NCBI RefSeq assembly: GCF_003952165.1
Contig: NZ_RXFT01000009.1
Span: 248,001 to 312,000 of the forward strand
From: Variovorax guangxiensis
Lineage (GTDB): Bacteria; Pseudomonadota; Gammaproteobacteria; Burkholderiales; Burkholderiaceae_C
Reading direction: 5' to 3'
Length of the DNA: 64,000 nt
In this document: positions 16,813 through 35,232 of the stretch, piece after piece
How the letters are laid out: every line of letters begins with the position of its first letter
Numbering within the stretch: position 1 is the stretch's first letter
Program-made: the position numbers and the translations under genes
Notes under the pieces: generated by a model
What the model saw: the letters and a program-made list of their open reading frames with translations, nothing else
The model's database searches: none
Told to the model about the DNA's origin: nothing

Positions 16813-17505
16813 TCAGGCCGCCTGCAGCCCGTAGCCCGAAAGCAGCGCGGGCAATTCGGCCATGTCGCTGAACACCCTCACCGCGCCCACGCTCAACAAT
16901 GGGCCCGGGCCGCTATGGCCCGACTCGCCCGTGCTGTAGCCGAACACCGTCGCGCCCGCCGCCACGCCGGCCATCGCGCCGGTGACGGTGTCTTCCACGA
17001 TGGCGCAGCGCCTGGGGTCCACGCCCAGCGCCTTGGCCGCCGCGAGGTACACATCGGGATGCGGCTTGGAGCGCGGCATCTCGTGGCCGCTGAAGATGCG
17101 GCCCTGGAAAAAGTCGAGCAGGCCGACCTTGGCGAGCTGCAGTTCGACCTTGTGGCGGTCGGCGCCGGAGGCGCAGGCGATGCGGCCGGCGAGCATGGCG
17201 TGGATTTCGCGGATGGCTTCAGGAGCACGCGGAATGGCGACAAGATCGCGTTCCAGTGCCTCGTTGCGGCGAGCGCGGAAGTTCGCCAACCATTCGTCGG
17301 TGATCCGGAAGCCGGTCTTCGATTCGATCAGCGCGGCTTCGTCCTTCACCGCCTTGCCAGTGAAGGTGTTCATCGCTTCCTCTGTGCTGAGCTGCCAGCC
17401 CAGTTCGCCGAGCATGCCGGCGAGGACGCGGTTGGTGATGGGTTCGGAGTCGACCAGGACGCCGTCGCAATCGAATAGGACTGCTGAGAAGGGGAAAGGG
17501 GGCAT
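16813..17505 (-). CDS. HAD-superfamily hydrolase, beta-phosphoglucomutase-like
   Basis: 230 residues. Motif I is LFDCDGVLVDSEP (nucleophile Asp in DCDG), motif II is CASGADRHK, the motif III region is SKPHPDVYLAAAKALG, and motif IV is CAIVEDTVTG. A helical cap lies between motifs I and II. It is a cytoplasmic sugar-phosphate or nucleotide phosphatase; the substrate cannot be told. The gene starts just beside the structured inverted-repeat element. Confidence 0.9.
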   Translation of the reverse strand: MPPFPFSAVLFDCDGVLVDSEPITNRVLAGMLGELGWQLSTEEAMNTFTGKAVKDEAALIESKTGFRITDEWLANFRARRNEALERDLVAIPRAPEAIREIHAMLAGRIACASGADRHKVELQLAKVGLLDFFQGRIFSGHEMPRSKPHPDVYLAAAKALGVDPRRCAIVEDTVTGAMAGVAAGATVFGYSTGESGHSGPGPLLSVGAVRVFSDMAELPALLSGYGLQAA

Positions 17506-17558
17506 TGTGTTTTTTGGGCCTTTGGGTTGCCGTTGATGGTAGCAATCGGCTTTGGGGG

Positions 17559-17789
17559 TTTGCTTTCCGGGGCCGGGTCTCGGCCCGGCGGCCGACTGAC
17601 TTTCTTTTGCTTCGCCAAAAGAAAGTAAGCAAAGAAAAGGCGACCCTACTGTCTGCGTCCCTTCGCTTCGCTACGGGCAACCTGCGGTGCTCGACGTAGG
17701 AGGGGGTCCGCAGAACTCGCTTCGCTCAAACAGCTGCGGCCCTGATCCCTCCTACGTCTGCGCTCCTCGGCGCAGCCAGAAGGGATCTC
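17559..17789. repeat. Left arm of a large structured inverted repeat
   Basis: This is a non-coding arm of about 231 bp. Hairpins in order: GCCGGG-N6-CCCGGC (17572-17589); ACTTTCTTTTG-CTTCGC-CAAAAGAAAGT (17599-17626); a CCC..GGG hairpin near 17659-17677; a long stem GACGTAGGAGGG (17693-17704) with CCCTCCTACGTC (17747-17758), enclosing CCGCAG/CTGCGG; and CTGCGC-TCCTCG-GCGCAG (17758-17775). The right arm (17985-18217) carries the same series in inverse orientation. Open frames across it are chance products of the repeat. Confidence 0.85.
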
Positions 17790-17984
17790 CACGCGCCATC
17801 GCTGCGCTCGGCTTCTGAACAGCCTTGGACTGGCCTTCGCTTCGCTCGGCCAGGGATACAGGTTCAGAACTAGTCTTGACGGCGCCAGCAGCGCACGCAG
17901 CAACCTCACCGCCTCATTCCAAGCACGGCAGGCGCTAAGCGCCTGCCGTGCCTTGGGGGCCGAGCAACGCGATGGCCCGGGCAT
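17790..17984. other. Spacer of the structured inverted repeat, itself hairpin-rich
   Basis: This is 195 bp without a credible gene. It contains TTCTGAAC (17813-17820) paired with GTTCAGAA (17862-17869), enclosing CTGGCC/GGCCAG. It also contains a 14-bp perfect stem, GCACGGCAGGCGCT and its complement, around one base (17923-17951). The latter could act as a terminator or cruciform. Nothing here looks like a transposase or a coding region. Confidence 0.6.
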
Positions 17985-18217
17985 CTCCCCTCCCCTCTGG
18001 CTGCGCCGAGGAGCGCAGCGTTTCGCGGATCAGGGCTCGCAGCTGTCTGAGCGAAGCGAGTTCTGCGAGACCCCGCGAAACGCGAGCACCGCAGGTTGCC
18101 CGCAGCGAAGCGGAGGGTCGCAGACAGTGGGGTCGCCTTTCTTTTGCCTACTTTTCTTTGGCGAAGCAAAGAAAAGTAGGTCGGCCGCCGGGCCGAGACC
18201 CGGCCCCGGGAAGCAAA
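17985..18217. repeat. Right arm of the large structured inverted repeat
   Basis: This arm is the inverse-oriented relative of 17559-17789. It has CTGCGC-N6-GCGCAG (18001-18018), GCGTTTCGCGG (18018-18028) paired with CCGCGAAACGC (18073-18083) enclosing TCGCAG/CTGCGA, CTACTTTTCTTTG-GCGAAG-CAAAGAAAAGTAG (18148-18179), and GCCGGG-N6-CCCGGC (18187-18204). The long stems differ in sequence from those of the left arm yet remain perfectly paired. It ends 16 bp before the SDR stop codon, on that gene's downstream side. Confidence 0.85.
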
Positions 18218-18233
18218 CACCCAGCCCAAAAAC

Positions 18234-19004
18234 TCAACGAGCGTGCGTAACCCCCCCATCAACCACCAACGTAGACCCCATCACATAGTCCCCAGCCCTG
18301 GAAGCAAGGTAGATGGCAGCCCCCGCCATGTCCTCGGGCACCCCGATCCGCCCCGCAGGAATCCGCCCCTTGATCTCATCCCCATGATCCCGAGCCACCT
18401 TGTTCATATCCGAAGCAAAGGCCCCAGGCGCAATCGCACTGACCACGATGCGATCCTGCGCCAGCCGCAGCGCCATGCGCCGGGTAAGCTGAATCAGCCC
18501 CGCCTTGCTCGCCGCATAGGAGTACGTCTCCTGCGGATTGACCGAGATCCCGTCGATCGACGCAATGTTGATCACCTTCGCCAGATGGTCGGTGGCGGCT
18601 TTCTTGAGCATCGGCGTCAACGCCTTGGTCAGGAAGAACGGCGTCTTCAGGTTCAGGTCCACCACCTTGTCCCATCCGCTTTCCGGAAACTCCTCGTACG
18701 GCGCACCCCAGGCGGCACCGGCGTTGTTCACGAGGATGTCCAGCGAGCCTTCATGCTTCGCATAGGCATCGACCAGCGCCTGCGCCCCCTCGACCGTCGA
18801 CACGTCGGCCGGCAAGGAAACGCAATGCCCGAAAGCCGACAGCTCCTTCGCCGTCTGGTCGCAGGCCGCGGCCTTGCGCGCCGAGATGTAGACGCGCGCG
18901 CCCTGCGCGAGGAAGCCCTCGGCGATCATGCGGCCGATGCCGCGCGAGCCGCCGGTGATGAGCGCGGTGCGGCCCTTCAGCGAGAAGAGTTGGGTGGTGT
19001 CCAT
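18234..19004 (-). CDS. Short-chain dehydrogenase/reductase
   Basis: 256 residues, classical SDR: TALITGGSRGIGRMIAEGF (NAD(P) site), LVNNAGAAWG, and YSYAASKAGLIQLTRR with the catalytic Tyr-x3-Lys. The C-terminal YVMGSTLVVDGG is typical of FabG-like and 3-hydroxyacyl reductases. The substrate is unknown. Its 3' end abuts the structured inverted repeat. Confidence 0.9.
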   Translation of the reverse strand: MDTTQLFSLKGRTALITGGSRGIGRMIAEGFLAQGARVYISARKAAACDQTAKELSAFGHCVSLPADVSTVEGAQALVDAYAKHEGSLDILVNNAGAAWGAPYEEFPESGWDKVVDLNLKTPFFLTKALTPMLKKAATDHLAKVINIASIDGISVNPQETYSYAASKAGLIQLTRRMALRLAQDRIVVSAIAPGAFASDMNKVARDHGDEIKGRIPAGRIGVPEDMAGAAIYLASRAGDYVMGSTLVVDGGVTHAR

Positions 19005-33112: not shown

Positions 33113-33157
33113 CAACCCGCGGGTTGACGCGCCGGGCCGGGGCTCGCACAATCGGCC

Positions 33158-33249
33158 CCGCTCCGGGGTGCACGCATGTGGCGTGCTGAGATGGCAAAGC
33201 TGCCGACCCGCGAACTTGATCCGGGTCATACCGGCGTAAGAAGAGCTGC
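33158..33249 (+). ncRNA. TPP riboswitch (THI element)
   Basis: The conserved TPP-sensor segments occur in order: CCGGGGTGC, GCTGAGA, ACCCGCGAACTTGATCCGGG and TCATACCGGCGTAAG, closed by GCTC/GAGC. It lies 100 bp upstream of the thiC ATG, the normal place. Binding of thiamine diphosphate should repress thiC by blocking translation or transcription. Confidence 0.95.
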
Positions 33250-33258
33250 ACTCCCTGA

Positions 33259-35232
<1,974 letters not shown>

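Follow-up and report, generated by a model that had tools for sequence, protein, structure and literature searches.

Within the window analysed here, a stretch of 64,000 nucleotides of Variovorax guangxiensis DNA, a non-coding two-armed inverted repeat of ~670 bp (17553-18223) with a variable spacer is flanked by an SDR-family gene and a HAD-family hydrolase gene (Table 1). It belongs to a family of repeats in which the strongest covariation is three-way: changes in tract Y1 of a hairpin go with changes in its partner R1 and in a purine tract farther downstream, R2, which is the mirror image of R1. Read from the outside in, an arm strand has the sequence of a purine (class II) intrastrand triple helix, and read from the inside out that of a pyrimidine (class IV) one, both putative. 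The motif class itself is already known (Holder et al. 2015; PMC4666352), and the element is an A/T-rich relative of it set within a far larger structure of two arms. What appears to be new is the co-variation of three strands, the large two-armed element and how it evolves.

The arms are ~260 nt each, and over 186 nt one arm is 87% complementary to the other; across 82 elements the left and right arms of one element are likewise 87% alike (median). The element, folded over 661 nt, has an energy of -527.7 kcal/mol (z = -27 against 20 shuffles), mostly from arm-on-arm pairing, and the single-arm folds give z = -2.8 (2 of 200 shuffles as good) and z = -3.6 (0 of 200). BLAST finds 28 matches in the same genome, the element itself counted, and eight loci fetched from it comprise six two-armed copies, one with three arm pieces and one single arm. 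Relatives are present in 56 of 61 congeners searched (own genome counted). A Variovorax paradoxus record matches at 84.9% over 81% of the query. From 147 loci, 125 had arm matches, and removal of 20 duplicates left 105, among which 90 have one + arm followed by one - arm, ten are single-arm and five are mosaic. The mosaic copies (L007, L019, L027, L141, L142) carry extra partial arms, partly in tandem, and in the single-arm copies L008 (near 1466), L105 (near 2132) and L133 (near 1839) there is an adjoining G/C-rich hairpin with a third tract, resembling TM_ECO. Spacers are mostly 42 to 306 bp. In two G033 copies the arms are 1.4 kb apart and enclose an identical 321-aa ORF (L123:470-1435, - strand; L124:2330-3295, + strand), which looks like an IS110-family transposase as read from the ORF; since both copies hold the same ORF, we take it as an insertion.

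Table 1. Coordinates of the element, its parts and the flanking genes, numbered from the first letter of the window.
Feature	Coordinates	Strand	Basis or remark
Whole two-armed element	17553..18223	none	Arm complementarity; ends from alignment of own-genome copies
Left arm, outside-in on + strand	17553..17813	+	Similarity to other arm and copies extends to GCTCGGC
Right arm, outside-in on - strand	17958..18223	-	Alignment with other arm and copies
Spacer hairpin, 14 bp, 1-nt loop	17923..17951	none	Inverted-repeat listing
Terminal hairpin TCGGCC-CGGC-GGCCGA, left arm	17580..17595	+	Columns 36-47 and 37-46; best tree-aware E 0.14
Terminal hairpin, right arm	18181..18196	-	Sequence; family alignment
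Hairpin H1, left arm, type A	17596..17629	+	Y1 17600-17609, loop 17610-17615, R1 17616-17625, lower stem
Hairpin H1, right arm, type B	18147..18180	-	On + strand Y1 18151-18160, loop 18161-18166, R1 18167-18176
R2, putative third strand, left arm	17630..17639	+	CAAAGAAAAG, mirror of R1 core AAAAGAAA
Y2 CTTTCTTTTG, putative third strand of right arm on + strand	18137..18146	+	Class IV, pyrimidine orientation
Inner domain, left arm	17644..17785	+	Closed by outer helix 17644-17657 with 17772-17785; RNAalifold
Long stem Q1 and inner stem Q2 (17708-17713/17734-17739), left arm	17693..17758	+	Both-sided changes
Long stem Q1 and inner stem Q2 (18037-18043/18063-18069), right arm	18018..18083	-	Sequence; family pairing counts
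SDR-family gene	18234..19004	-	Stop faces element, 10 nt off; Pfam match
HAD-family hydrolase gene	16813..17505	-	Start faces element, 47 nt off; Pfam match

A sequence-only reading of this stretch had named hairpins in the two arms and taken the compensatory changes between them as the signature of selection on structure. All of the hairpins that it quoted lie where it placed them: the first-named hairpin of the left arm (ACTTTCTTTTG, 17599-17609; loop CTTCGC; CAAAAGAAAGT, 17616-17626) and its right counterpart (CTACTTTTCTTTG, 18148-18160; GCGAAG loop on the + strand; CAAAGAAAAGTAG, 18167-18179), and the long stems GACGTAGGAGGG/CCCTCCTACGTC (17693-17704/17747-17758) and GCGTTTCGCGG/CCGCGAAACGC (18018-18028/18073-18083). 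Within the long stem, CCGCAG/CTGCGG on the left (17708-17713/17734-17739) has its counterpart in CTCGCAG/CTGCGAG on the right (18037-18043/18063-18069). The arm-against-arm changes are thus real; the two arms of one copy are not independent evidence, however, because copies overwrite each other (below). Paired changes in Watson-Crick stems could moreover arise by template-directed correction of imperfect hairpins, with no selection. That reading had proposed covariation over many copies, measured against background, as the check on its claim.

We aligned 185 complete, distinct arms and used a subset of 100 divergent arms for pair counts, with stems named by hand from the observed hairpins (H1 came out poorly when RNAalifold was run on the initial alignment). 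In the 100 arms 94.2% of cells pair, and both-sided changes occur in 20 of 49 pairs (345 cells); shifting the partners by 1-3 columns lowers this to 3-6 pairs and 12-23 cells, a comparison that favours the counted structure, which came from these same sequences. The covariation score was reached by none of 500 shuffles, and the number of further pair types did not exceed the shuffles (161 of 500). Both-sided changes are seen in 8 of 11 pairs of the long stem Q1, and in 8 and 21 of the 100 arms at terminal-hairpin columns 36-47 and 37-46, this hairpin elsewhere taking the forms TCGCCC/GGGCGA and TCCGCC/GGCGGA. RNAalifold, blind to the hand-named structure, adds an outer helix closing the inner domain (columns 103-116 with 246-259), in which pair 106-256 is CG in 58, UA in 41 and UG in one of the 100 arms; its terminal hairpin is unlike the hand-named one.

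A tree-aware null in the manner of R-scape was then applied to the 185 arms (FastTree tree, Fitch changes re-placed by column rate, 40 null alignments); it leaves out recombination, although the copies recombine. Under it 14 column pairs reach E<0.05, of which 12 fall among two columns each of Y1, R1 and R2, one lies at the base of H1 and one, 96-230, is the outer-helix pair 106-256 of the 100-arm alignment. Three of the 14 are stem pairs named beforehand; H1 pairs 46-77, 53-70 and 54-69 are among the 14. No pair reaches E<0.05 in the long stem (best 0.11), the inner stem (0.09) or the terminal hairpin (0.14). The check thus does not refute the claim of selection on structure and supports it in part: the first-named hairpin, with the third strand and one outer helix, holds the significant pairs, whereas the long stem and the inner stem do not reach significance pair by pair. 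The third strand, the limits of the element and its mode of evolution were absent from the sequence-only reading.

Pairing within H1 is imperfect at two places. Pair 50-73, the base-proximal pair of the purine tract, is unpaired in ~38% of the 185 arms; it is T-C in 71 and T-G in 11 of the 185, with its neighbours still paired. Pair 47-76 is C-A in 49 of 185. Mismatch events number 69 for A-C versus 27 for G-U, which hints at folding on the inside-out strand; the hint is uneven between helices (14:0 in T and 33:0 in Q1, but 6:11 in M) and nearly even when counted by columns (14 versus 13).

A mirrored homopurine tract beside its hairpin is the sequence rule for an intrastrand triple helix, with triads A.A-T and G.G-C on the purine strand and T.A-T and C+.G-C on the other. 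Since DNA copying yields direct or inverted repeats and never mirrors, the R2 mirror did not arise by copying. Among the 185 arms A4GA3 in R1 is followed by A3GA4 in R2, A3GA4 by A4GA3, A2GA4 by A4GA2 and the short A3GA3 by A3GA3, and in none is the same asymmetric tract found in both places. A strict count, scoring the exact mirror against the exact direct copy after an asymmetric tract, gives 105 mirror versus 1 direct in Variovorax, 83 versus 6 in other genera (five of the 6 fit both) and 16 versus 1 (fitting both) in named-organism arms outside the scan pattern. The other-genera set comprises 102 loci, five of which (L148-L151, L153) came from BLAST with the tract in the query and the rest from the hairpin alone. 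Hairpins were read on both strands and R2 lies on one side only, so that the 208, 235 and 181 hairpin-strands are not counts of failure. Nine asymmetric tract words obey the rule, including A3GAGA2 followed by A2GAGA3 and the reverse, as well as A4GA2, a type A tract in which another base has taken the place of the final A of R1; imperfect mirrors occur at L162, L180, L184 and L194, and hairpins with no R2 at L170, L189 and L199 are taken as chance. The strict count supersedes an earlier sliding-tract test (115 mirror, 3 tie and 28 direct of 146 in Variovorax; 108, 14 and 4 of 126 elsewhere), which was replaced because most Variovorax direct rows had included the closing G of the stem in the tract.

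These arms have Y1, R1, a 6-nt loop, R2 after the lower-stem strand and eight triads, almost every one of 100 arms having T-A-A or C-G-G at triads 4 and 5. The source describes the motif as a Y tract and two R tracts, or their complements, on a single strand, with stems of 6-15 nt, loops of 1-6 nt and triads A-A-T and G-G-C (PMC4666352). R2 directly follows the lower stem, and a third strand would have to bridge 4-5 bp or the lower stem would open. By tract type, the 71 elements with types A and B only are AB in 42 cases (35.4 expected), AA in 16 and BB in 13; 17 two-arm elements with other types are left out of this count.

The pattern extends well beyond the genus. Of 300 genomes from the order, 49 hold the hairpin when R2 is not required, as do 39 of 369 from the class (own genome in both). 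A scan of named genomes for the B-type unit gave at least 120 stretches, and the 80 listed include Paraburkholderia, Burkholderia, Variovorax, Polaromonas, Xenophilus and Undibacterium, together with Dyella, Xanthomonas, Lysobacter, Luteimonas, Methylomonas, Aeromonas, Stutzerimonas, Halopseudomonas and Pasteurella testudinis, and MAGs labelled Desulfobulbus, Desulfobacterales and Clostridia. Pasteurella multocida has a left type A and a right type B hairpin ~380 bp apart, each with its mirror tract (L149:1144-1554, between genes annotated DUF484 and dapF), and Comamonas has a shorter tract pair. The element has no match in the INPHARED phage collection. Two IMG/VR viral contigs (L372:324-362 and L373:9509-9547) carry a B-type hairpin with a third tract.

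Copies keep their sites and overwrite each other within a genome. We defined orthologous sites by shared flanks of >700 bp, one side being sufficient, in loci taken mainly from the best BLAST matches, so that rarer sites may be missed. By this measure 103 of the 105 loci (30 genomes) share a site group with loci of other genomes; there are 11 groups in all, two of them singletons, and some fuse more than one site. Arm identity is 0.902 between orthologues and 0.895 between non-orthologous copies of the same genome pairs, a small and consistent excess (105 of 157 pairs), whereas paralogues within a genome have a mean of 0.935 and are more alike than orthologues in 129 of the 157 genome pairs. 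Whole elements behave similarly, with medians of 0.881 for 347 orthologous pairs, 0.882 for 150 others and 0.924 for 167 paralogous pairs; ten of the 347 involve the short remnant L042 and score 0, which affects the median little, and the arm comparison omits L042. Spacers are not conserved between orthologues (0.451 versus 0.460), and are >70% alike in 39% of 165 within-genome pairs versus 6% of 284 between-genome pairs. Shared sites together with greater likeness within genomes than between orthologues therefore indicate concerted evolution. At the SDR-HAD site itself, only short remnants are left in three congeners, where the gaps measure 98, 189 and 133 nt, and in another congener the 103-nt gap contains no element; the remnants (L041, L042, L044) retain element ends only, down to the single hairpin TTCCGAGGCCGGG/CCCGGCCTCGGAA.

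Gene context was assessed with a codon-usage gene caller for 93 two-arm Variovorax elements. Neighbours are co-directional in 68, convergent in 14 and divergent in one (L002, where the nearest called gene on one side is 1154 nt off), and ten lie at an edge, both neighbours being called in 83. Three background sets of gaps, of 31 (the window), 57 and 33, contain 8, 6 and 2 divergent and 2, 0 and 2 convergent ones. After six with both neighbours >400 nt away were dropped, the 62 co-directional elements lie at a median of 20 nt from the stop and 107.5 nt from the next start, with 49 within 40 nt of a stop and 9 within 40 nt of a start; in ten co-directional cases the nearest called stop is at least 600 nt off or, once, 166 nt. 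Ten proteins encoded beside the sites are mutually unrelated and include an amylase, a GntR/aminotransferase, an M55 peptidase, an RND pump, two permeases and a penicillin amidase.

The function that we favour, at a probability slightly short of even, is that the element is a putative two-way structured 3' end of transcripts, an RNA domain carrying a putative triplex. Whichever strand is transcribed, the RNA would meet the outside-in arm first and end with the inside-out arm, whose pyrimidine-motif triple helix would be of the class reported for RNA. Such a domain could protect the message upstream of it from 3' exonucleases and set it apart from the following gene. The source states that RNA forms triplexes of the pyrimidine class only, and purine-motif triplexes are said not to form in RNA (PMC4666352). 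Covariation, the mirror rule, the position behind stops, the fixed sites and concerted evolution count for the proposal, and the excess of A-C over G-U mismatches points the same way as a hint. Against it are the preference of the whole-element fold for arm-on-arm pairing over local folds, the frequently unpaired H1 pairs 50-73 and 47-76, the unevenness of the mismatch hint and the need for R2 to bridge a stem. According to the same source, neither promoter nor terminator activity was seen for the related PIT elements, which also gave no footprint in vivo (PMC4666352). The element is not a conventional intrinsic terminator, there being no T run, and the outward flanks of 82 elements are A/C-rich and T-poor on both sides.

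With more reserve, we suggest that an intrastrand triple helix may be under natural selection across Beta- and Gammaproteobacteria in an RNA domain closing messages from either direction, as a bacterial counterpart of triple-helix 3'-end stabilisers whose fixed-site copies would be kept alike by gene conversion. Triple-helix RNA 3' ends of the ENE/MALAT1 kind occur in eukaryotes or viruses and have an internal loop rich in U and an A-rich tail. In common with them the element could place a third strand in a hairpin near the 3' end, with U.A-U and C+.G-C triads possible; unlike them it is a bacterial hairpin whose putative third strand adjoins the stem, and we propose likeness only and not membership.

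The main rival is that the element acts as DNA, its single-stranded arms folding (hairpin and triple helix) during replication or supercoiling, stalling forks or inviting breaks, upon which repair copies in another element; it would then be a recombination-prone or chromosome-organising site. We regard this as rather unlikely. The strand-symmetric two-arm design of 90 of 105 loci, the concerted evolution of whole elements, the truncated remnants that three congeners have at the SDR-HAD site and the mixed strand signal of A-C versus G-U mismatches are all in keeping with it, as is instability reported around TM_ECO (PMC4666352). A purely DNA role does not, however, predict the close position behind stops, and break-driven overwriting would presumably purge the most structure-prone copies, leaving the structure in need of another reason.

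Position alone need not imply function, because REPs also sit behind genes (PMC3733652). This 3' position, the cassette-like A/B type switches with no intermediates, the strong conversion among copies and the lack of individually significant long- and inner-stem pairs under the tree null would all suit a passive, old REP-like repeat, harmless behind genes, whose covariation comes from hairpin correction and cassette gene conversion. We consider this improbable, since hairpin correction makes inverted and not mirror copies and leaves R2 unexplained, and the same layout is conserved in distant genera.

Two further explanations are very improbable. A currently mobile non-autonomous element of MITE or REPIN type, served by a transposase in trans, might be suggested by the inverted arms, the many copies per genome and a Y1_Tnp domain found once per genome in 38 of 41 congeners, but 103 of 105 loci are at orthologous sites, eight Y1_Tnp loci have no arm similarity (best E 0.23), and the domain occurs in G024, G026 and G036, which lack element matches, and is absent from G018, G022 and G035, which have them. 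Nor is there a convincing target-site duplication: in 82 elements the best shifts reach 0.31 identity versus 0.24 in shuffled flanks, at several neighbouring offsets near 28 nt out. Two protein-binding sites at R1 and R2, with one tract of each type required and no triple helix, would fit the common types A and B, which always give one A and one B tract per arm, but the mirror rule, and not a one-of-each rule, holds for A2GAGA3, A3GAGA2, A2GA5 and GA3GA3 and for A3GA3 and A3GGA3, which are symmetric. A coding function was set aside; ORFs can be drawn across the element, but this stretch is structured, and the genes on its two sides have Pfam matches.

Bacterial intrastrand triplex motifs were reportedly the subject of earlier papers by Hoyne and Maher. 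In our search of the open-access literature PMC4666352 was the sole close paper, and the element, third-strand co-variation and concerted evolution of such elements were not found. As that paper describes them, PIT, BoxC and TM_ECO repeats likewise carry Y-R-R tracts on a single strand, separated by short loops (class II), or the complement of these (class IV), and are intergenic, repeated and widespread in Proteobacteria, with inverted type A/type B pairs in E. coli; TM_ECO, studied in that species and found in such inverted pairs, is stable in vitro, gives no footprint in vivo and is linked to local instability (PMC4666352). In contrast, the tracts described here are A/T-rich and lie inside ~260-nt structured arms of a ~670-bp palindrome, the TM_ECO/BoxC consensus CCCTCNCCC-N3-6-GGGNGAGGG-N3-GGGNGAGGG, as given there, is not matched, and the element adds co-variation of a third strand, fixed sites and concerted evolution.

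REP, REPIN and BIME repeats resemble the element in that their units are palindromic, often paired in inverted orientation at variable distances, and located mostly behind genes, and the element too is mostly downstream of coding regions; a REP unit, however, is 20-40 bp with a GTAG or CGTC tag (PMC3733652), as compared with an arm of ~260 nt and several helices. GTAG in some H1 stems is paired within the stem and is not such a tag, and no link to a Y1 (RAYT) transposase was seen in eight loci or across 41 congeners, in which presence of the domain does not track presence of the element. With MITEs it shares terminal inverted repeats, non-coding content and dispersal, and it differs in lacking a target-site duplication and in having nearly all sampled sites in common across the genus. 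Rfam 15 has no match within the element at gathering score, and at E up to 5 gives five sub-threshold, weak matches of miRNA type.

The three-strand co-variation provides independent, evolutionary evidence on intrastrand triplexes in living bacteria, a long open question, the best-studied motif being stable in the tube and giving no footprint in the cell (PMC4666352). The natural alleles are ready-made matched and mismatched constructs for a direct triplex test, and fixed-place copies that overwrite each other within each genome offer a good system for gene conversion between distant sites. Elsewhere in the window, a TPP riboswitch aptamer is present at 33154-33259 on the + strand (Rfam RF00059, 60.7 bits).
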